Assembly (NCBI GenBank): GCA_016927935.1
Contig: JAFGLS010000051.1
Span: 1-37,991, forward strand
From: Syntrophaceae bacterium
GTDB taxonomy: Bacteria; Desulfobacterota; Syntrophia; Syntrophales; Smithellaceae
Direction of reading: 5' to 3'
DNA: 37,991 nt
The position numbers and the translations under genes were made by a program. The notes under the pieces were generated by a model, which did not search any database, was not told where the DNA came from, and saw only the letters and a list, made by a program, of their open reading frames with translations. This document shows positions 4,170-24,085 of this stretch, piece after piece (positions within the stretch are counted from its first letter, which is position 1; each line of letters opens with the position of its first letter).

Positions 4170-5018
4170 TCAGTTGCATTTTACAGTGAACCCTACCGGT
4201 TTATTATTCTTAAAATTACCCGTGAACTGTTTGCCATTACTACAAGTGTAAGTTCCCCAACCATTAATTTTGCCGTCAACAAAATCTCCTTCATACTTAT
4301 TGCCGCTGGGAGAGGTAAGAGTTCCTTTCCCATGTAATTTGCCGTTAACAATATTGCCTTCATATTTATTACCATTGGCATCGGTGTAGGATCCTTGTCT
4401 TTGGTATTCACTCATAGTCCTTCGAGGAATGGAAATATTTCCGGAATTCTGTAAAACACAATTTATAGTAAATCCAACTGGTTTATTATTTTCGAAATCA
4501 CCAGTGAACTGCTTACCATTACTACAAGTGTAAGTTCCCATGCCACTCATTTTCCCATCAGCCCAATCACCTTCATATTTATTGCCATTTGCCCAAGTGT
4601 AAGTACCTCTACCATGCGGTTGGCCGTTCACAATATTGCCTTCATATTTAGTGCCATCTGCAAAGGTGAGAATTTCTCTATTATTCGAGTTTTCAGAAAT
4701 TGATTTTACTTCTTTTAAACTCCAACCACGTGCTTCCATACAAAGATTATATATTTCCACATTTATTAAAGCTTCGTCTTCGACATGTCTAAGCTCAGCG
4801 GAGCTATTTGTTCCCTTTGCTTTTGATATCGTTGGCTGTGCTTGTTTCATGCAGTCATATCTATCTTTTGTGAACTGATTCTGTGTAGCATTGGGCTTAG
4901 ACCACACTTTATTTACAGGTTCCGTAGCACAAGCGCCGATAAGTGTAATTATGAACAAGGTGACAATCATAATTATCATCGAAGAATTTTTTTCTTTAAG
5001 CACAACACTTTTTTTCAT
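4170..5018 (-). CDS. Lipoprotein with duplicated MORN-repeat unit
   Basis: 282 residues. The N-terminus is a lipoprotein signal with hydrophobic stretch 14-28 and lipobox IGAC, so Cys30 should be lipidated. Residues 31-115 are a soluble region with paired cysteines. Two copies of a roughly 63-residue block follow (125-187 and 219-281), each made of MORN repeats (KYEGNIVNG, KYEGDWADG, FTGDFENNK) and ending in KPVGFT plus Cys. MORN repeats form beta hairpins that bind lipids, proteins or glycans; in bacterial lipoproteins the role is unknown. A good ribosome site (AGGGGGAAAT) precedes the ATG. Transcription diverges from the ribbon-helix-helix gene at 5389. Confidence 0.85.
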   Translation of the reverse strand: MKKSVVLKEKNSSMIIMIVTLFIITLIGACATEPVNKVWSKPNATQNQFTKDRYDCMKQAQPTISKAKGTNSSAELRHVEDEALINVEIYNLCMEARGWSLKEVKSISENSNNREILTFADGTKYEGNIVNGQPHGRGTYTWANGNKYEGDWADGKMSGMGTYTCSNGKQFTGDFENNKPVGFTINCVLQNSGNISIPRRTMSEYQRQGSYTDANGNKYEGNIVNGKLHGKGTLTSPSGNKYEGDFVDGKINGWGTYTCSNGKQFTGNFKNNKPVGFTVKCN

Positions 5019-5388: not shown

Positions 5389-5631
5389 ATGGATAAAATA
5401 ACAATGTCAATTAGAGTAACCGCCAATGAGAAAAAGATGCTTATGAAACGGGCGGAAAGGTTGGGTTTGTCGGTTAATAGTCTCATTAGATTTTGGATAA
5501 ATACTGAACCCAATTCTCCAAGGGCATTCGCTAAGAGAACCTGTGGCACCTGTAATGGAACTGGAAAGATTGACGACGTAAATATATGCAAAAAATGTCA
5601 AGGTGCAGGATTTGCGTATATTGAAATATAA
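5389..5631 (+). CDS. Ribbon-helix-helix domain fused to a DnaJ-type zinc finger
   Basis: 80 residues in two parts. Residues 3-37 (ITMSIRVTANEKKMLMKRAE and following) look like a ribbon-helix-helix DNA-binding domain: a beta strand with alternating polar residues, then two helices. Residues 52-74 contain two CxxCxGxG motifs, CGTCNGTG (52-59) and CKKCQGAG (67-74), the pattern of the DnaJ/Hsp40 central zinc finger; the four cysteines would bind one zinc. RHH proteins act as dimers that repress promoters, often their own; the DnaJ finger binds unfolded or partner protein. The fusion suggests a zinc- or protein-responsive regulator. The ribosome site AGAGGTGAATA precedes the ATG. It is a single gene with about 490 bases of mostly empty sequence downstream. 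Confidence 0.8.
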   Translation: MDKITMSIRVTANEKKMLMKRAERLGLSVNSLIRFWINTEPNSPRAFAKRTCGTCNGTGKIDDVNICKKCQGAGFAYIEI

Positions 5632-6119: not shown

Positions 6120-6359
6120 ATGATTAAAGTCATTCTTGAAATAAGGGTTAATAACCATGAGGATATACTGAATCAGCGTAACCGCTTTTTTGGACCGATT
6201 ATAACAAAATTTGTTTCTATTGAAGAAAAAGTTGAAGAAGCAATATGCAAAGACCTTGCCGAGAGAATTGTTCCGGAAGTCAAACAAGGTCTCAGAACTG
6301 AAGGTGTTCTTGCTGATGTGTATGTCAGAGCTTTTATAGAGAGACGTGAAAGAGGTTAA
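6120..6359 (+). CDS. Small conserved protein A1 (paralogue of 7880-8116)
   Basis: 79 residues, alpha/beta, no membrane segment. I do not recognise the family. It aligns along its whole length with the protein at 7880-8116: both begin MI[KR][VI] then a strand, share NHE[DE]IL..R..FF, then KVEE.I.KDL.E...P.VK and end in a strand plus a basic RRE/KRE tail. The predicted fold is strand-helix-helix-strand. Conservation of this layout between two copies flanking a lipase gene argues that both are real genes. A ribosome site (GCGGAG, eight bases upstream) supports the ATG. Its function is unknown; a small partner or regulatory subunit of the neighbouring patatin-like protein is a guess from position. 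Confidence 0.75.
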   Translation: MIKVILEIRVNNHEDILNQRNRFFGPIITKFVSIEEKVEEAICKDLAERIVPEVKQGLRTEGVLADVYVRAFIERRERG

Positions 6360-6721
6360 AGATAAAAATATAACCTGTTAAATCGGAACTCTCCATAGTA
6401 TAGAATAAATCAGCCTGTTCATGAGAATTAAGTTTTTTAACCGATAACATATTGCCGTAATTGGAACACTGGTATAATAAAAAATATAACATATGAATTT
6501 GACCCCCGACGTAACATCTCCAAGTCTTGGGCAGGAAATATTTTAAATGTTTTTCTATTAAATTATTTGATTGACTATTTTTTTATTTATTTATAATAAC
6601 TTAAATCAATATTTATAAATAGTGGGCACATGTAAATTTGATTAATAAAAGACTCAAAACGATAATGTAAAATAGTCAAAAAGGAAACAGCTCCAAAATT
6701 TATAAATGGTGGAAGAAGAAA
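6360..6721. other. Intergenic region with a candidate promoter
   Basis: 362 bases before the patatin-like gene. A possible sigma70-type promoter is TTGACT (6571-6576) with TATAAT (6592-6597), but the 15-base spacing is short. The rest is AT-rich without visible genes. Confidence 0.35.
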
Positions 6722-7849
6722 ATGTGGGGAGATAAGAAAAAAGAAGAAAAGAAAGAAGATAAAAAAGAGACAACTGAAGATAATCAGGATATAGAAAAAG
6801 AAGAGGAAGAAAAGAAAAAGAAGAAGAAGTTTACTGTCGGAGTAGCGATGGGGACAGGCGGATTTAGAATGTCGTTTCATGCTGGCTTCATCGATGGACT
6901 GACTAAAATGGGAATTGAGGTTGACCAGTTTGTGGGGACATCTACAGGGGCGCTTTCCGCATTTTTGGGGTCAGTGGGTGTTCCGGGGTATGAATGGCTT
7001 GATGATGTGCCGCCGGTGTGGCATTTTAATATGATAAAACCCGGATTTATCGAGGATTTTATTAAAAATGAGGTAAAGAAAAGGTTGAGCCTAAATAGGC
7101 AATCTGATGAGCCGAGAAAAAAGCAAATATATGAGAGTATGAACTCAAAAATGAGACTCATTGCCGCCGACTTTCCCGGTTTGGATGCAAAAGTTTTCGA
7201 TAGTTATAAGAGCATGAGTGATGTGGCAATGAAGATTATAGCGGCTACATCAATACCTTATCAGACAAAGTTTCCAGTGAAAGTAAATGCCGATTATTAT
7301 ATAGATGGTTTTTTTGCCACGTTATTTCCATATGAATTGCCTATGAGGTTTCTCGAAACGGATATAAAAATATCCCTGAGGGTTGTACCGCCATATTTGA
7401 AGCTAAATATACCTAATATTAGAATAATGGAATTTGTTCCCAAAGTTTATAAATACAATTTATTACAAGGTGTATTACCTCTCGCGTGGATGATAGAAGA
7501 TATGTATCGTGACGGGTACAGACAGGCTCTGCATTCGAGGATAGAAAGGATGCTGGGCATGAAATGGGTGGAGAAAAGGTCAGACGAAACGAGAAGGCGC
7601 GAAGATGAAGATGAAGATGTAGATGTAGATGTAGGTATGAAGAGGCGTGAAAGACGTGATAGACGTGAAGAGGATTATGACAGAGGGGATGGCCGATACG
7701 CAGACGAAAGAAGGGAAAGAAGCACGAGGCGAAAGATAAAATTAGGCCTTATTGATGAGGGTGACGAGGACGGAGGAGGCGTTTTCAATTTTCTGAAGAG
7801 AAAAGGCAGATCCTTTTTAGATGAAGAAGATGAGATGGATGAATTATAA
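6722..7849 (+). CDS. Patatin-like phospholipase/acyl hydrolase with charged tails
   Basis: 375 residues. Residues 1-36 are an almost pure Lys/Glu/Asp tail. The patatin domain spans about 37-290. It has the oxyanion-hole glycine loop GTGGFR (44-49), the nucleophile elbow GTSTG with Ser74, and the catalytic Asp195 in DGF (usually DGG or DGA). The Ser-Asp dyad should hydrolyse acyl esters in phospholipids or neutral lipids. Residues 290-375 are a disordered Arg/Glu/Asp tail containing a DED/DVD run coded by a hexamer DNA repeat. No signal peptide or membrane helix is visible, so it should act in the cytoplasm, perhaps at a membrane or granule surface. It is 30 bases upstream of A2 and in an apparent operon with the phasin-like gene. 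Intracellular polyester or lipid mobilisation is possible but unproven. Confidence 0.87.
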   Translation: MWGDKKKEEKKEDKKETTEDNQDIEKEEEEKKKKKKFTVGVAMGTGGFRMSFHAGFIDGLTKMGIEVDQFVGTSTGALSAFLGSVGVPGYEWLDDVPPVWHFNMIKPGFIEDFIKNEVKKRLSLNRQSDEPRKKQIYESMNSKMRLIAADFPGLDAKVFDSYKSMSDVAMKIIAATSIPYQTKFPVKVNADYYIDGFFATLFPYELPMRFLETDIKISLRVVPPYLKLNIPNIRIMEFVPKVYKYNLLQGVLPLAWMIEDMYRDGYRQALHSRIERMLGMKWVEKRSDETRRREDEDEDVDVDVGMKRRERRDRREEDYDRGDGRYADERRERSTRRKIKLGLIDEGDEDGGGVFNFLKRKGRSFLDEEDEMDEL

Positions 7850-7879
7850 ACATAATGACTGATTTAAGTGGTAAAAATA

Positions 7880-8116
7880 ATGATTAGAATTGCTGTGGAA
7901 GTAAAAGTACAAAATCATGAGGAAATACTTAAAGATCGAGATGGTTTTTTTCCGACATTATTTGCGAAAATAGTAACGGGAGATATGGAAGTAAAGGTTG
8001 AAGAAGAAATCGGCAAGGATTTAGTGGAAAAGCTACTGCCAACAGTTAAGAAAATTCTGCAATCTCAAAAAGTAAAAGCTAAAGCTATCGTGTATGTTGA
8101 AAAACGTGAAGAATGA
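7880..8116 (+). CDS. Small conserved protein A2 (paralogue of 6120-6359)
   Basis: 78 residues starting MIRIAVEVKV. I chose the ATG at 7880 rather than the GTG four codons upstream because it aligns exactly with the start of A1 at 6120. Shared positions include NHEEIL, the FF pair, KVEEEIGKDL and the terminal KRE. No known domain is recognised. It lies 30 bases after the patatin-like gene and 60 bases before the phasin-like gene, so it is very likely cotranscribed with both. The two A proteins bracket the lipase gene, which suggests duplication and a functional link to it. Confidence 0.78.
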   Translation: MIRIAVEVKVQNHEEILKDRDGFFPTLFAKIVTGDMEVKVEEEIGKDLVEKLLPTVKKILQSQKVKAKAIVYVEKREE

Positions 8117-8176
8117 GGATTACAACAACGCGGAGAGTGAAGTTTAAAAAATATTATTAAAAGGAGGAGGTTCAAA

Positions 8177-8509
8177 ATGTCTGGGAAAAAAAAGAGTAAG
8201 AAGAAGGTGGAGAAAAAGACTGAAGGAATTATCGAAAACATAACGAAACTTGTAAGGACTTCTGTCTTTGCAGGCCTCGGACTGGCCTTCCTGGGGGAAG
8301 AGACGGTTGAAGGATGGGCAAGAAAAATTGCCAAAGAAAACAAACTGTCAACTAAGGACATACAAAGTTTTGTCAGGGACGTGAGAAGACAGAGTCGAGA
8401 AGCGAGAAAGGATGTTGAGAAAAGTGTAAAGTCCCTGGTTAATGAGATTATTCCGGGTGGTAAAAAATCATCGGGCAAAAGCAAAAAAAAATCATCTCGC
8501 AAAAGATAA
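8177..8509 (+). CDS. Phasin-like protein B1 with basic C-terminal tail
   Basis: 110 residues. A Lys-rich N-terminus (1-14) is followed by an amphipathic helical domain with VRTSVFAGLGLAFLGEE (about 30-46), which resembles the start of phasin / poly-granule-associated proteins (pattern RKVWLAGLGA), then a charged coiled-coil region, and a tail of Lys, Arg and Ser (about 95-110). Phasins coat polyhydroxyalkanoate granules; PhaF-type phasins carry a histone-like basic tail that ties granules to the nucleoid, and the layout here is similar though shorter. The ribosome site AAGGAGGAGG is very strong, so high expression is likely. A paralogue, B2, is at 12131-12496. No PHA synthase is in the window, so granule binding is an inference. 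Confidence 0.7.
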   Translation: MSGKKKSKKKVEKKTEGIIENITKLVRTSVFAGLGLAFLGEETVEGWARKIAKENKLSTKDIQSFVRDVRRQSREARKDVEKSVKSLVNEIIPGGKKSSGKSKKKSSRKR

Positions 8510-8598
8510 AAAAAGACCATTAAGTGGAAGTAATGCTTAAAGAACAAGGCAAGTAACTTTGGGAGTTATTAGAAGGATAGTTTATTTTTTTTATGTTT

Positions 8599-8640
8599 GT
8601 ATGGCCCAATATAAAAAGTTGATTTTATATTGGGCCATAT
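8599..8640. repeat. Long perfect inverted repeat / hairpin
   Basis: ATGGCCCAATATAAAA (8601-8616) and its exact reverse complement (8623-8638) are separated by AGTTGA. The flanking T8600-A8639 pair and a G-T wobble extend the stem to about 18 pairs. It lies between phasin-like B1 and the UbiB kinase. There is no T-run after the stem on either strand, so it is not a standard intrinsic terminator. It may be an mRNA processing or stability element, or the relic of a palindromic mobile repeat. Confidence 0.8.
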
Positions 8641-8706
8641 GGTTTCAGCATCAGGAATAAATGCTTTTTCCCCCGTTAAATCTCGATTATCAAGAGGTAT
8701 CACAAT

Positions 8707-10446
8707 GTGTGGGAAAAGCAATTTTTTGCCTCCGCAATGAGAAGGTTTTTTTTGAATACCAAATCTTTTGTCACTAAATTCAGCAATTTAAAAAGATTCA
8801 GGCAGATAATATCCGTTCTGATCAAGTATGGTTTTAGTAATGTCTTGCATGATATAAAGCTGGACAGATATATTAATTCCGCCAGAAAGCTCATAACCGG
8901 GTATAATCCTGAAATAGAGTCTATTTCCCGATGGCAAAAAATGAGAATGGTCTTGGAGGATCTAGGACCTAATTTTGTCAAAATAGGACAGATCCTGAGC
9001 AACAGACCAGATCTTCTTCCCGCCGACCTTATTATCGAACTCTCAAAGCTACAGGATTCAGCAGAGCCCTTTGCGGGAGATGAAGCAAAAGATGTCATCG
9101 CTGAAGAACTGGGCCGTTCCGTTGAGCTTATATTCAAAGAGTTTGACGATGTTCCAGTAGCCAGTGCTTCCGTCGCCCAGGTGCACAGGGCGGTATTGCA
9201 TGATGGAACAGTAGTGGCCGTCAAGGTGCAGAGACCGGATATAGAAAAGATAATAAAAACTGACATTGAGATACTTTTTAATTTGGCAATGCTTCTTGAA
9301 AAATTTGTTAAGGGGATGGATATTTTAAATCCTATAAGCATCATAGAGGAATACAACAAAGCGATAAATATGGAGCTGGATTTCATTCTTGAAGCATCTC
9401 ACATAGAGCAGTTTGGCGAGAACTTTGTATATGATGATTCGATTTATGTTCCGATTGTGTACCGTGAATACACTACCAGCAAGGTACTCACTATGGAATT
9501 TGTTGATGGCATTAGGTTTTCTGATTTCGTACAAAATGCTTCTGAAGAAAGACTCAAGAAAATTGCCAGAAGAATAACGCGTCTTATAATAAAGCAAGTA
9601 TTTGAGTATGGTTATTTTCACGCCGATCCACATCCGGGTAATATATTTATTTTAGACAATGATAGAGTTTGTTTTCTCGATTATGGTTTGATGGGCAATC
9701 TTGCCTTTAAGCAGAGGGAACAGGTTACGGAAATACTCATGGGTATAGCGGACAGGGAGGCCGGTAAAATTGTCAATGTGCTGCAGAGAATGACTGAGAT
9801 CGGATATATCGAAAACAAGGACAAATTGGAAAAAAAGATAAATGAATTTTTGAAGAAATATGCCGGCGTGTCTCTCGGAAAAATCGATTTGTCTGATCTT
9901 TTTTATGATGTAATAAATACGATTATGTCTTTCCGGTTGAAAATTCTGCCCGACTTTTTTTTACTTATTAAATCTGTTGTAACCATGAAAGGAGTTATAA
10001 GTAAACTCGACCCCGATTACAAAATAGATGATTATCTTAAGCCCATGCTTTATAACTTTTATTACAACAAACACGTTAATCCCAGAAAGATTGCGGAAGA
10101 TATCTACACTTCGGCATCGGGATTAATAAGTCTCCTTCGTACGGCTTCTGATGACATGCGGGAACTGTTCGAGCAGCTTAAAAGAGGCAGATTAACTATA
10201 TCTTTAGATCATAAGGGTTTTGACGGGGCGGTCAGCAGGTTTGAGAAAACAGGCAACAGAATTGTCCTGTCTGTCATAGTAGCTTCGCTTTTAATCAGTT
10301 CTTCACTGACCATAGCGGCTCTCATCATGATGTCGAAAATCAACATTCCTGAAGTTAATGGGATTAATTTCGGTTTTGTGGGAATGATGGTGGCTACAGG
10401 GCTCGGAATATTTTTATTGCTATCAATTATTTTCAGAAAATCTTAG
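8707..10446 (+). CDS. ABC1/AarF/UbiB-family protein kinase-like ATPase
   Basis: 579 residues. The UbiB signatures are all present: KIGQ (92-95) of the N-terminal extension, the Ala-rich loop ASASVAQ (152-158) in place of a glycine loop, Lys173 in VAVKVQRP, ELDF (223-226), HADPHPGN (305-312) and the DYG metal site (325-327). Two membrane helices at the C-terminus (about 525-548 and 555-577) anchor it in the inner membrane. UbiB proteins are atypical kinases with ATPase activity needed for ubiquinone synthesis or lipid handling; the true substrate is open. No ubi or men gene is nearby; the neighbours are a patatin-like lipase and phasin-like proteins. The start is the GTG at 8707 with GAGG nine bases upstream; the next in-frame ATG lacks a ribosome site. 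Confidence 0.92.
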   Translation: MWEKQFFASAMRRFFLNTKSFVTKFSNLKRFRQIISVLIKYGFSNVLHDIKLDRYINSARKLITGYNPEIESISRWQKMRMVLEDLGPNFVKIGQILSNRPDLLPADLIIELSKLQDSAEPFAGDEAKDVIAEELGRSVELIFKEFDDVPVASASVAQVHRAVLHDGTVVAVKVQRPDIEKIIKTDIEILFNLAMLLEKFVKGMDILNPISIIEEYNKAINMELDFILEASHIEQFGENFVYDDSIYVPIVYREYTTSKVLTMEFVDGIRFSDFVQNASEERLKKIARRITRLIIKQVFEYGYFHADPHPGNIFILDNDRVCFLDYGLMGNLAFKQREQVTEILMGIADREAGKIVNVLQRMTEIGYIENKDKLEKKINEFLKKYAGVSLGKIDLSDLFYDVINTIMSFRLKILPDFFLLIKSVVTMKGVISKLDPDYKIDDYLKPMLYNFYYNKHVNPRKIAEDIYTSASGLISLLRTASDDMRELFEQLKRGRLTISLDHKGFDGAVSRFEKTGNRIVLSVIVASLLISSSLTIAALIMMSKINIPEVNGINFGFVGMMVATGLGIFLLLSIIFRKS

Positions 10447-10579
10447 AAGTCACTATGTTTGAAATGGGTTTAAAAACTCTATTAGGATAAGAAACGGCGA
10501 AAAGATCAAACCAGAATTGTAATAATCGCTTTAATTCAATGCGTAATTTATACAAATGCTTACCCCCGAGTTTTATTGA

Positions 10580-11854
10580 TTATAAATAAAGCATCATGAG
10601 AAGCTGAGCAACTCCCACAGAGGCGCCTAAAAGAGCTCCCACGAAAATCAGTATCCATTCGTCCTCATGGAAAATCGGTCGTAAAAGATCCGAGTATTGT
10701 TCGGGGGTAAGTTCTGCAAATCTCTCAATCATGATTTGTTTCACGTTAAGAGCTTGCTGAACATAATTTTCAATTAGTTTCATGGCTTCGGGGTGGGTTA
10801 ATTCCATGGAAATTTCATGCTTGATTAAGTCAATCACGTCTGGCTGAAGCGATGATGTTATTAGCGGTTTAACCGGTGATGACAGTCTGTCAATGGCTTG
10901 AGAGACGCCCATCCTTATGATGAGATTTATTCTGGATCTTTCTTTGCCGGTCAATATTTTTCTAATGATATTTCTGGAATTTAGAACGTCTTTTTCTATC
11001 AGTTCGGAAAATCCTTTGGCAACATCGAGCCTTCTCTTAAGGAAAAGACCCTGCCATTTAAAAAATCCCAAATACCTCTTCTCTTGTGTAGGCTTGAAAA
11101 TCATATAAATAGCCAGCCAGTTGGTAAGATAACCGACAATGGCACCTTGAACAGGAATAGTCCATAATAAAGGATAAGTAAGCCATATTACCACCTGACA
11201 AAGCCCGAGAAGAAAGCCGAAGAAAAAACCGGAGTTTATTATGAAGTCGAACTCTTTTATGCCAAGCGTCTTAACTAGATTTATCATTTTGTCAACATTT
11301 TCGCCTGTCATGCTCTCAATAGCCAGTTCCATGAGGTCAAATATCTTGAATATATTTTGCTGAATATCCTCAATAACCAGTCTACAGCCTTTGGGCAGTT
11401 GACGTCTTGAGGCTTTGATTATTTCATCTCTTACCATATCCGGCATCAACTTCCACGTTAAAGGGTTTGATTTTTCAAAAACTTCATTGACGATGTCATT
11501 GATTAGATCATCAGCTACAGGTTCCAATTTTTTGGAGATTACTCTGGGATCCAGCCTGTTAAATATCTCGTCTAAATGAACAAGTCTTGAGGAAAGATAA
11601 TCTGTTGTCCTGGTCGCAAATTTAACAGCCTTCTTGGGAACGATTCCCTGCCAGCCAAGATATGGCGGGATGCCCCAGAAACTTTTTGGCCAAAATATCA
11701 TTTTTACGGCCTGCCAGTTGGTCAGCCAGCCGACAAAACCATACATAAAAGGCATCGCAACTACATTTATGACTGACTTATGAAGTGCATAGTATATCCC
11801 TATTTGATGCCAGTAACTAACTATTTGGTGTAAAAAATCAATCAAGAAACTCAT
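10580..11854 (-). CDS. DUF445 family membrane protein
   Basis: 424 residues. Two copies of the DUF445 signature are visible: GFVGWLTNWQAVKMIFWP near the N-terminus and GAIVGYLTNWLAIYMIFKP in the middle, each followed by a WQG segment (GWQGIVP, KWQGLFLKRR). A C-terminal helix (EDEWILIFVGALLGASVGVA) closes the protein. About four membrane helices enclose long helical soluble regions. DUF445 proteins (for example Bacillus YheB) have no firm function. It converges with the UbiB kinase gene 133 bases away. A paralogue with the same layout is at 22838-24085. The ribosome site CAGGAAATAA precedes the ATG. Its link to the neighbouring phasin-like and kinase genes is positional only. Confidence 0.88.
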   Translation of the reverse strand: MSFLIDFLHQIVSYWHQIGIYYALHKSVINVVAMPFMYGFVGWLTNWQAVKMIFWPKSFWGIPPYLGWQGIVPKKAVKFATRTTDYLSSRLVHLDEIFNRLDPRVISKKLEPVADDLINDIVNEVFEKSNPLTWKLMPDMVRDEIIKASRRQLPKGCRLVIEDIQQNIFKIFDLMELAIESMTGENVDKMINLVKTLGIKEFDFIINSGFFFGFLLGLCQVVIWLTYPLLWTIPVQGAIVGYLTNWLAIYMIFKPTQEKRYLGFFKWQGLFLKRRLDVAKGFSELIEKDVLNSRNIIRKILTGKERSRINLIIRMGVSQAIDRLSSPVKPLITSSLQPDVIDLIKHEISMELTHPEAMKLIENYVQQALNVKQIMIERFAELTPEQYSDLLRPIFHEDEWILIFVGALLGASVGVAQLLMMLYL

Positions 11855-12130
11855 TATTTATTTCCTGTATAAGATCATTATCCGCAGTTTGTAAATACTG
11901 CAATTATTTAATGATTTTATATAGTATTTTTTAATAACTTTAATCAAGATTTTTTTACGTATTTGTTTGTTTTAAAAATAATGGTAATAGGAAGCCGATG
12001 CTGCTCCTTCCATTTTGCTTTTTATTACAAGCTTTCTATGAGGGAACGTATAGCATTAATTATTCTTAGTTAATTACCTTTCAATAATATTTTTATAATT
12101 TTCCCCTGTTTTCTTCTGTTTTATTGATAC

Positions 12131-12496
12131 TTACCTTACTGACACTGTGCGTTTTTTTCTTACTCTTTTTCTTACTTTACTCTTACTAGTTCCCTCAGTT
12201 TTTTTCTTGGTTGATGGAAGAATATCATTAAGCAATGATTTAACGCGTTTCTCAATATCCTTTCGTGTCTCCACGCTCTGTTGTCTAATGTCATTGATAA
12301 AACTCTTTACATCAGTCGTGGACAGGTCGTTATCTTTGGCAACTTTCTTTGCCCATTTCTCAATCGTTTCCTGCCCGAGAAATGCTACACCGAGGCTTGC
12401 AAAAACAGAAGTTTTTACCATATTTGTCACATCTTCGATAATTTCAGTGACAACATTTTTCTTCCCCGACTCATTCTTTGATTTACTTGTAGGCAT
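12131..12496 (-). CDS. Phasin-like protein B2 with basic C-terminal tail
   Basis: 121 residues. I start at the ATG at 12496 (MPTSKSKNESGKK) because GAGGAGG lies just upstream; the reading frame continues further but without a ribosome site. It aligns with B1 (8177-8509) through the whole core: [KR]TSVFA.LG.AFLG.ET.E.WA.K.AK.N.LST.D..SF, then R.DIEK/DVEK..KSL.N.I.P, and ends in a Lys/Arg tail (about 100-121). The same reading applies: a phasin-like amphipathic helix protein with a histone-like tail. It lies about 275 bases upstream of the DUF445 gene on the same strand. The pair B1/B2 brackets the UbiB and DUF445 genes. Confidence 0.7.
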   Translation of the reverse strand: MPTSKSKNESGKKNVVTEIIEDVTNMVKTSVFASLGVAFLGQETIEKWAKKVAKDNDLSTTDVKSFINDIRQQSVETRKDIEKRVKSLLNDILPSTKKKTEGTSKSKVRKRVRKKRTVSVR

Positions 12497-12836: not shown

Positions 12837-13304
12837 ATGCACTTGAGCAGTTATTGGCTTACCATTATATTTGTATTTATAGGTTTTGTAATTTTTGCAG
12901 TGTATAAAATATATAGTGAAAACCGTCGGAATTTCTTATTGGAAGCCGTGGAATCTGGTGATTGCAATCGTGTTAAGAAAGCTCTTGATAAAAAGATAAA
13001 CATAAATACTAAATATGACTATGGTAATACAGTGCTGATGTCGGCAGCTTTAAAAAATCATGTGGAAGTTGTTAAGTTTTTGATAGAGAAAGGAGCGTAT
13101 ATCAATGCTAAAAGTAATGATGGTCATACGGCGCTGATGTCGGCAGCCTTACAACGGAGTACAGAATCTGTTGAGTTGCTGATAGAGAAAGGAGCGGATA
13201 TAAATGCTAAAAATAATGAAGGTAGAACCGCGATGATGCTGGCCGAAGGAAAAGGCCATACAAAGATCGTTAAGATACTGATGAATGCAGGGGCTGATTA
13301 TTGA
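12837..13304 (+). CDS. Membrane-anchored ankyrin-repeat protein
   Basis: 155 residues. An N-terminal membrane helix (about 7-26) is followed by four ankyrin repeats (32-155) with clear signatures: GNTVLMSAALKNHVEVVKFL, GHTALMSAALQRSTESVELL and GRTAMMLAEGKGHTKIVKIL, each ending in GA..NAK or GADY. Ankyrin repeats bind proteins; the anchor would place them at the inner membrane, facing either side. The ribosome site AGGGAGAT lies upstream of the ATG, and a candidate terminator follows at 13386-13411. It is a single gene. Ankyrin proteins of this size are common in free-living bacteria and need not imply a host-associated life. Confidence 0.88.
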   Translation: MHLSSYWLTIIFVFIGFVIFAVYKIYSENRRNFLLEAVESGDCNRVKKALDKKININTKYDYGNTVLMSAALKNHVEVVKFLIEKGAYINAKSNDGHTALMSAALQRSTESVELLIEKGADINAKNNEGRTAMMLAEGKGHTKIVKILMNAGADY

Positions 13305-16722: not shown

Positions 16723-16920
16723 ATGAAAAAAATAACAGAAATGGTAAATGCGCTTAAAGAAAAATTGGAGAGAATAAATGTTGAAGTAATTGAGCTTGAA
16801 GAAGAAAAGGCGGCAAAAGCAGCGGGGAATCATGCGAGAAAACTTTTACAAGGTATAAAAAATGATATTGATAAAGTAAAGAAGACTATTACGAAAATTA
16901 AGAGTCCGAGACAGAAATAA
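16723..16920 (+). CDS. Small histone H1-like (Hc1-type) basic protein, second copy
   Basis: 65 residues, the same length as the protein at 2799-2996 and alignable without gaps: TEMVNALKEKL, then V.VE.I..E.EKA..AAG..ARKLLQ.IK.DI and a basic end. The core AAGNHARKLLQGIKND is the Hc1-like motif with HA for TR. These small proteins are thought to bind DNA and compact the nucleoid. It follows the DUF1796 gene by 32 bases with its own AAGGAAAT ribosome site. A bidirectional terminator lies 140 bases downstream. The two copies differ in acidity of the middle segment, so they may not be equivalent. Confidence 0.65.
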   Translation: MKKITEMVNALKEKLERINVEVIELEEEKAAKAAGNHARKLLQGIKNDIDKVKKTITKIKSPRQK

Positions 16921-22837: not shown

Positions 22838-24085
22838 TTAAATAACGCCGGTATAAGCATGAATAAAACCCACGACGAGACCAAGAGCAACTCCTACCGC
22901 TATCAGAATCCATTCATCTTCTTTGAAAATAGATCTTAAAATGTCTTCAAATTGAGCATTGGTAAGCCGTCTCATATTTTCAATCATGGTGTTTTCAATA
23001 TCAAGAGCCTTTCCGACATAATCTTCTAAACGTTGCATTGTTTCAGGGGAGGTTACTTCCATGCTGATTTCATGCTGAACCCTGTCCAGAACCTCCGATT
23101 TGAGCGCGGCCAGCACTACAGGTTTAACCATTTTTGTCAATCTGTCGATGACCTGAGATATGGATATTCTTATGATAAGATGTATCCTGTCTTTTTCTCT
23201 TCCCTCTAGTACTTTTTTTATGATGTTTCTCGGATTAAGAACCTCTTGTGTTACCAGCTTGGAAAATTCCTTCGTTACTTCCTCTCTTCTCCGGAGAAAT
23301 AGCCCCTGGTAAGTCCAAAATAAAAATTTTTTTGGATCCAGCGGCCTGAAAACCATCTGGAGTGCAATCCAATTGACGAGTCCGCCAACAATGGCGCTCT
23401 GAATAGGCACCGTCCACAATGCCGGAAAAATATACCAGAGAAGCGTCTGGACACACCCGAGAAGAAATCCGATGTAAAATCCCAACTTTTCGAGAAATTT
23501 GAATTCTTTGCCCCCTATTGTTTTAAACATGTATCTCATGCGATCGACATTTGGACCGACCATGCATTCTGTTGCCAGTTCCGGCAGATCAAATATCTTA
23601 AAAATGTTTTTCTTTATATCCTTGATAACCAGTCTGACGGCCTTGGGAACTTCGTTGTGCGTGGTTCTGATTATTTCTTCTCTGGCCATGTCCGGAACCA
23701 TTTTCCACACGAGAGGGTTTGAGCTTTCAAAAATTTCATTTATTAAATCGGATACAAGTTCATTAATTATGATTTCCAGTTTTTTGGCGATTACACGCGA
23801 GTCGAGCCTGCTAAATATCTCATCAATATTAATAAGTTTTTCTGTAAGAAGCCTTGCAGTATTGCCTGCGAATTTACCGGCGTTACGGGGTATTAAACCC
23901 TGCCAGCCGAGATACGGAGGGATGCCCCAGAAAACTATCGGGTGAAACATCATTTTTATGCACTTCCAGTTACTGAACCAGCCGAGAAAACCGAAGACAA
24001 GCGGCATAGTCAGTATTTCTAAATAATGGCTGTATTTGCTGAAGAGACTCGTAATCTGGTGCCAGAAATCCATAAAAAATCTCAA
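22838..24085 (-). CDS. DUF445 family membrane protein, second copy
   Basis: 415 residues, aligning end to end with the protein at 10580-11854. It has GFLGWFSNWKCIKMMFHP near the N-terminus, SAIVGGLVNWIALQMVFRP in the middle, WQGLIP and YQGLFLRRREE, and the final helix EDEWILIAVGVALGLVVG. Membrane-embedded, function unknown. The start is uncertain: TTG at 24085 gives MRFFMDFWHQ, matching the MSFLIDFLHQ start of the paralogue, but the ATG four codons later is also possible; neither has a clear ribosome site. It is followed after 30 bases by the DEAD-box helicase gene. Confidence 0.88.
   Translation of the reverse strand: MRFFMDFWHQITSLFSKYSHYLEILTMPLVFGFLGWFSNWKCIKMMFHPIVFWGIPPYLGWQGLIPRNAGKFAGNTARLLTEKLINIDEIFSRLDSRVIAKKLEIIINELVSDLINEIFESSNPLVWKMVPDMAREEIIRTTHNEVPKAVRLVIKDIKKNIFKIFDLPELATECMVGPNVDRMRYMFKTIGGKEFKFLEKLGFYIGFLLGCVQTLLWYIFPALWTVPIQSAIVGGLVNWIALQMVFRPLDPKKFLFWTYQGLFLRRREEVTKEFSKLVTQEVLNPRNIIKKVLEGREKDRIHLIIRISISQVIDRLTKMVKPVVLAALKSEVLDRVQHEISMEVTSPETMQRLEDYVGKALDIENTMIENMRRLTNAQFEDILRSIFKEDEWILIAVGVALGLVVGFIHAYTGVI

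Follow-up and report, generated by a model that had tools for sequence, protein, structure and literature searches.

A phasin-related protein encoded directly upstream of UbiB, and a divergent second copy of the pair behind a patatin-like hydrolase in a Syntrophaceae genome

The stretch of DNA analysed here, in the following the window, is a 37,991-nucleotide contig (JAFGLS010000051.1) from the genome of a Syntrophaceae bacterium and corresponds to contig C85 in an assembly of 239 contigs and 3.38 Mb (90.9% complete, 5.0% contamination). At issue are seven genes between positions 6120 and 12496, all of which are present as placed in a first-pass annotation made from the letters alone: (i) A1 (6120-6359, + strand), an open reading frame (ORF) for an orphan small protein of 79 residues, (ii) a gene recognised by Pfam Patatin for a divergent patatin-like hydrolase of 375 residues that has charged arms of low complexity at its N- and C-terminus (6722-7849, + strand), (iii) A2 (7880-8116, + strand), an ORF for a 78-residue protein recognised as a paralogue of A1 by its similarity, (iv) B1 (8177-8509, + strand), preceded by AGGAGG and encoding a phasin-related protein of 110 residues with a Lys-rich tail that matches a profile of its homologues, (v) a gene recognised by Pfam ABC1 for a UbiB/ABC1 atypical kinase-like ATPase of 579 residues (8707-10446, + strand), (vi) a gene for a DUF445 membrane protein (10580-11854, - strand; Pfam DUF445 4.6e-21), convergent with the UbiB gene, and (vii) B2 (12131-12496, - strand), encoding a paralogue of B1 and located 276 bp upstream of the DUF445 gene on the same strand. 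The start of A2 at ATG 7880, 30 bp past the patatin stop, aligns with the start of A1; the listed ORF opens earlier, at GTG 7868. The five genes of the + strand follow one another with successive gaps of 362, 30, 60 and 197 bp, and a hairpin with a perfect 17-bp inverted repeat (8600-8639, no strand) lies between B1 and the UbiB gene. Because the DUF445 gene and B2 are on the - strand and the other five genes on the + strand, the locus comprises at least two transcription units.

The paralogy proposed for A1/A2 and B1/B2 in the first-pass annotation is genuine. A1 and A2 are 45% identical and find each other at an E-value of 5.5e-13, B1 and B2 are 51-52% identical, and the differences between the members of each pair are biased towards the third codon position: at positions 1, 2 and 3 they number 31, 18 and 45 for A1/A2 (76 codons) and 42, 26 and 53 for B1/B2 (110 codons). 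This excess at position 3 is as expected for coding genes under selection. In total, the locus consists of real genes, mostly of ordinary families, together with one orphan pair (A) and one conserved pairing (B-UbiB).

The B-UbiB pairing is a conserved two-gene unit in which a phasin-related helical protein is encoded directly upstream of UbiB. UbiB is the next same-strand ORF downstream of B in 25 of 29 loci of other genomes, and the gap between the two is 3-71 bp in 23 of these 25, the other two overlapping through the choice of the longest ORF. Some UbiB match is found by tblastn in 27 of the 29 loci; as for the other four loci, L053 stops 27 bp past B, L047 and L051 hold short UbiB fragments at the locus end and L059 has none. 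In wider stretches of 5.9-18 kb (n=20, from 20 of the 43 other genomes with B) the pair is present in 19 of 20 and spans eight families of the order. Moreover, in a set of 60 genomes B and UbiB co-occur: 14 genomes have both, one has B only (G055), three have UbiB only and 42 have neither (Fisher p 5.5e-10; the co-occurrence tests ignore relatedness, and the 100-bit ABC1/UbiB threshold was picked after the table was seen). Literature searches, in which most subscription journals lay outside coverage, returned no paper on a phasin-UbiB pairing by title, and the pairing may well be visible already in public neighbourhood databases.

The assignment of B as phasin-like in the first-pass annotation holds indirectly: B1 and B2 belong to a phasin-related family. 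B1 and B2 themselves pass no phasin cut-off: they have no Pfam Phasin (PF05597) hit at E <= 1, and their scores against a phasin-related NCBIfam model (E 0.067 and 0.072) are under its cut-off. They do match a profile made from the 29 homologues at E-values of 2e-13 to 5e-13, and the comparison of the B profile with that of the UbiB-linked homologues by hhalign gave a probability of 97.9. Fourteen homologues were scanned against family models, 13 chosen from the 29 and the source genome's own on contig C185. PF05597 is matched (E <= 0.001) by 13 of the 14, and its cut-off is exceeded in two of the four homologues with scores; at the same threshold BMFP, the UbiK family, is matched by eight of the 14 and PHA_synth_III_E by seven. 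UbiK and UbiJ are small partner proteins of ubiquinone enzymes, and the BMFP matches give B a likeness to UbiK at scores of 21.4-25.4 bits in three of the four scored homologues, under the Pfam cut-off of 37.2. Compared to phasins of the PF05597/TIGR01837 (PhaF-like) type, the likeness thus lies in the match of the UbiB-upstream homologues to PF05597 and in the Lys-rich tails, which both B1 and B2 have; the difference lies in the scores of B1 and B2 under the phasin cut-offs and in a family that follows UbiB, not polyhydroxyalkanoate (PHA) synthase.

Counting the source genome, B is matched in 44 of 149 relatives. Strong copies of the B1/B2 type number eight in the source genome, and other genomes hold one or two weaker matches; beyond the window, six such copies reside on contigs C77, C20, C12, C215, C14 and C36 (loci L064-L069) in relatively AT-rich kilobases. 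The search model missed the source genome's own C185 copy, which makes absences of B provisional. A scan of genome_contigs with the B alignment, by a method that depends on short exact patterns, found no relative, and a B homologue searched against plasmids likewise had none. Searches of PHROGs with B1 and B2 gave weak matches only (best 9.5e-5), of unknown function. The copies on L068 and L069 have a common extra C-terminal part, which is SpoIIAA-like in L069 (3.2e-4, under cut-off) and has no such match in L068, and L067 additionally contains a weak phasin-like ORF (7603-7869). Four of the seven contigs with B1-type copies carry genes of the HD-GYP type no further than approximately 10 kb from B (in the window at 1211-2617, and in L066, L068 and L069); HD_5 matches across the whole source genome number 25.

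The UbiB protein of the window passes Pfam ABC1 with 260.1 bits (2e-77; cut-off 22.9) and contains the KxGQ, alanine-rich loop and DPHPGN motifs and a hydrophobic C-terminus. In these traits it resembles the UbiB/COQ8/ABC1K kinases; it differs from them as a divergent second copy. The other full-length copy, on C185, is 36% identical to it and forms part of the ordinary B-UbiB pair of the source genome. The C185 protein has 70-74% identity to seven same-genus UbiBs, whereas the window protein shares 32-38% identity with 15 long UbiBs from the order, a figure that drops to 22% for the shorter L104, and, in a tree, groups on long branches with the UbiB of genome G026 (support 0.997). We conclude that the pair in the window is an extra, divergent copy.

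Upstream of this pair, A currently stands as an orphan family with two members. It matched nothing in 148 other relatives or in 394 other genomes of a phylum sample (149 and 395 genomes when the source genome, which is in both sets, is counted; the sets overlap). In genome_contigs and viral_contigs, scans by pattern turned up 536 and 571 matching stretches with none confirmed, distant relatives being able to escape such scans, and A has no Pfam or NCBIfam family above cut-off and no PHROGs match. Its predicted structure is a strand-helix-helix-strand arrangement of low confidence (mean predicted local distance difference test (pLDDT) score 59.6) for which Foldseek found no match among solved structures at E <= 0.001; against PDB sequences only eight chance-level rows were obtained (best E 0.19).

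The patatin-like protein passes Pfam Patatin (1.4e-8, 35.6 bits; cut-off 27.7), and the Ser of its GTSTG and the Asp of its DGF are aligned with GTSxG and DGG in 13 other patatins. The oxyanion stretch is altered, reading GTGGFRM where 12 of these 13 have GGGGx(R/K)G and one has GSGSARG. From these motifs the protein is probably an active yet specialised hydrolase. It is also lineage-specific: matches at E <= 0.001 occur in 78 of the 149 relatives, own genome counted, with a best score apart from its own gene of 30.5 bits, the best scores in other genomes of the phylum sample are 36.7 and 36.2 bits, and no close relative was found in either set. The top match among the relatives, a gene of G026 (locus L004), turned out to be a generic patatin. 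Among PDB sequences the search returned PlpD at E 0.069 and one chance row, and a single-sequence structure model had a mean pLDDT of 34.1, too low for fold comparison.

Starting from the gene order, the homologies, the conservation of B with UbiB, the patatin dyad and the confinement of A to one of the genomes searched, we infer what each part may do and how cassette and pair might work together. The explanation that we regard as the best, while holding it tentatively and as a little short of probable, is that B partners UbiB at a lipid surface and that the window carries a second such pair behind an A1-patatin-A2 cassette: (i) UbiB would spend ATP on drawing a lipophilic molecule (a quinone, another isoprenoid or an acyl lipid) out of the membrane, (ii) B would coat or hold the lipid surface at which UbiB acts, by analogy with UbiJ/UbiK and the coat proteins of plastoglobules, (iii) a second, divergent copy of B-UbiB would serve in this way behind the lineage-specific cassette, (iv) the patatin would probably cleave acyl esters or polyester at the lipid surface, and (v) A1 and A2 would probably bind or regulate the patatin. 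The idea of a lipid surface remains tenable for B-UbiB and, to a lesser degree, for the patatin. UbiB-family ATPases have been tied to lipid extraction and to plastoglobules in the parts of the literature consulted (PMC8346625). A bolder proposal, which we consider a long shot, is that B-UbiB would be the bacterial equivalent of a plastoglobule, in which a phasin-type coat and an ABC1 ATPase would jointly load and unload quinones or other neutral lipids at the surface of a lipid particle, the second copy and a newly added lipolytic cassette (the patatin with its two A partners) forming a dedicated lipid-store module here.

The role of ATP in UbiB/COQ8/ABC1K proteins is a long-standing question, and a phasin-related protein encoded right before UbiB in eight families of one order provides a testable UbiB partner. 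If true, the B-UbiB partnership would connect the UbiB family to the coat proteins of lipid particles, as on plant plastoglobules.

Several observations weigh against a B-UbiB partnership at a lipid surface. In genomes G019, G026 and G063 UbiB is present but B was not detected, and no UbiB lies in the retrieved flanks of six of the eight B1-type copies, two of these six lying within approximately 1.3 kb of a contig end. Against the TIGR01982 equivalog the window protein scores 422.8 bits, under the cut-off of 487.55, and is therefore a UbiB-family member, not demonstrably a ubiquinone UbiB. A gap of 197 bp that includes a strong hairpin (the region 8510-8710 folds with z = -3.35) separates B1 from UbiB, so the two may not be on one message; the hairpin has no T-run behind it and is absent from the list of a terminator scan. 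Finally, B is weakly associated with PhaC_N, which occurs in 72 of the 149 relatives, namely in 28 of 44 genomes with B and in 44 of 105 without (p = 0.02). Separately, one 15-base arm of the hairpin has inexact matches only, in eight other genome stretches.

In a competing account, possible though unlikely in our view, unrelated genes specific to the lineage (A, the patatin, the B copies and genes for MORN and ankyrin proteins) have collected by chance in a stretch that is AT-rich and changes fast, and joint function is limited to B-UbiB. The GC content of the left 16.7 kb of the window is 0.352 compared to 0.433 in the remainder, the other six B copies likewise lie in relatively AT-rich kilobases, and a neighbourhood shared across the 20 wider loci is absent, all of which a chance gathering would explain. 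It would leave unexplained that A1, patatin, A2 and B1 are consecutive on one strand, with 30 bp between patatin and A2 and 60 bp between A2 and B1, and that both paralogue pairs have been kept as coding genes.

The possibility of a carbon-storage granule, raised in the first-pass annotation, stands insofar as the genome encodes a class III PhaC on contig C133 (TIGR01836, 423.5 bits; cut-off 365.3), with a PhaE-like neighbour (41.6 bits) and an enoyl-CoA-hydratase-like protein, each under the model cut-off. In its specific form, which we think rather improbable, B1 and B2 would be PhaF-type phasins with DNA-binding tails, the patatin would be an intracellular PHA depolymerase, and UbiB and DUF445 would be bystanders. 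PhaC with its PhaE-like neighbour, the Lys-rich tails and the association of B with PhaC_N among the 149 genomes speak for such a set, as do two described systems. In Synechocystis, slr0058 (PhaF-like) and slr0060 (patatin domain) share the operon slr0058-slr0061, both products are linked to polyhydroxybutyrate (PHB) and Slr0060 was isolated with PHB granules; in Haloferax mediterranei, the PHA depolymerase PhaZh1, called patatin-like in a paper cited in the report on it, works on PHA granules (as described in the parts consulted of PMC7203880 and PMC4823750). These same excerpts also report that loss of slr0060 has only minor effects and that neither this knock-out nor that of phaZh1 has more than a slight influence on granules or PHA mobilisation.

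As far as that report goes (PMC7203880), the Synechocystis operon resembles the window in bringing phasin-like and patatin-domain genes together and differs from it in that a UbiB partner goes unmentioned: the main text contains neither ubiquinone nor ABC1 nor kinase. Slr0058 lacks the prolonged C-terminal coil of PhaF (same excerpts), and its likeness to B is by description, not by sequence; the same is true of PhaZh1, the substrate of which is a polyester, and the patatin of the window (PMC4823750, in part).

In the source genome, A, B, patatin and DUF445 are all lacking from the 15 kb around phaC, and of 17 same-genus genomes 12 carry PhaC_N, 11 of these 12 being without A. Furthermore, in the 60-genome set the association with PhaC_N is gone (9 of 15 genomes with B and 22 of 45 without; p = 0.56), whereas that between B and UbiB is strong. 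Given that B follows UbiB closely and PHA synthase weakly at most, we view B-UbiB as mainly a story of a UbiB partner; the dispersed B copies could nevertheless be granule phasins. Beside phaC/phaE on C133 there is also a divergent PHA-synthase-like protein of 627 residues (L077, 8862-10745), under three NCBIfam cut-offs.

The first-pass annotation had further inferred that all the parts form one system, an idea to be given up if homologues of A, B and the patatin lacked a shared neighbourhood in related genomes, as is largely the case. We reject a conserved A/patatin/B/UbiB/DUF445 system: A was found in none of the other genomes searched, the patatin is without a close relative in the genome sets covered, none of the 20 wider B loci from other genomes contains A, patatin or DUF445 in the flanks retrieved (E <= 1e-4, models from few sequences), and apart from B-UbiB a shared neighbourhood is absent. 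Likewise, neither a viral origin (A and the patatin had no match in PHROGs and no relative in viral_contigs) nor a plasmid origin (no plasmid match for the patatin) is supported.

With respect to the genome setting, PurA in the right half of the window has 82-85% identity to full-length same-genus copies and 73% to one further copy, with a match in 13 of 16 other genomes of the genus, and this closeness indicates that the right half is native. The AT-rich left half may be joined to it by assembly. The presence of B on six further contigs in this bin argues that the AT-rich gene stock belongs to the organism of the bin, or to a single contaminant. Outside the cluster, a second DUF445 protein (22838-24085, - strand) is 52% identical to the first. 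The cluster is flanked by genes for a MORN-repeat protein that begins like a lipoprotein (4170-5018) and an ankyrin-repeat-like protein (12837-13304). A short protein (5389-5631) resembles NikA at its start (26.8 bits against a cut-off of 27) and the DnaJ zinc finger in another stretch (23.7 bits, cut-off 32.7). The AT-rich half is bordered by two small histone H1-like (Hc1) genes in inverted orientation (2799-2996, - strand, and 16723-16920, + strand); the Pfam Hc1 cut-off is passed by the former only, and their 212-nt arms are 75% complementary.

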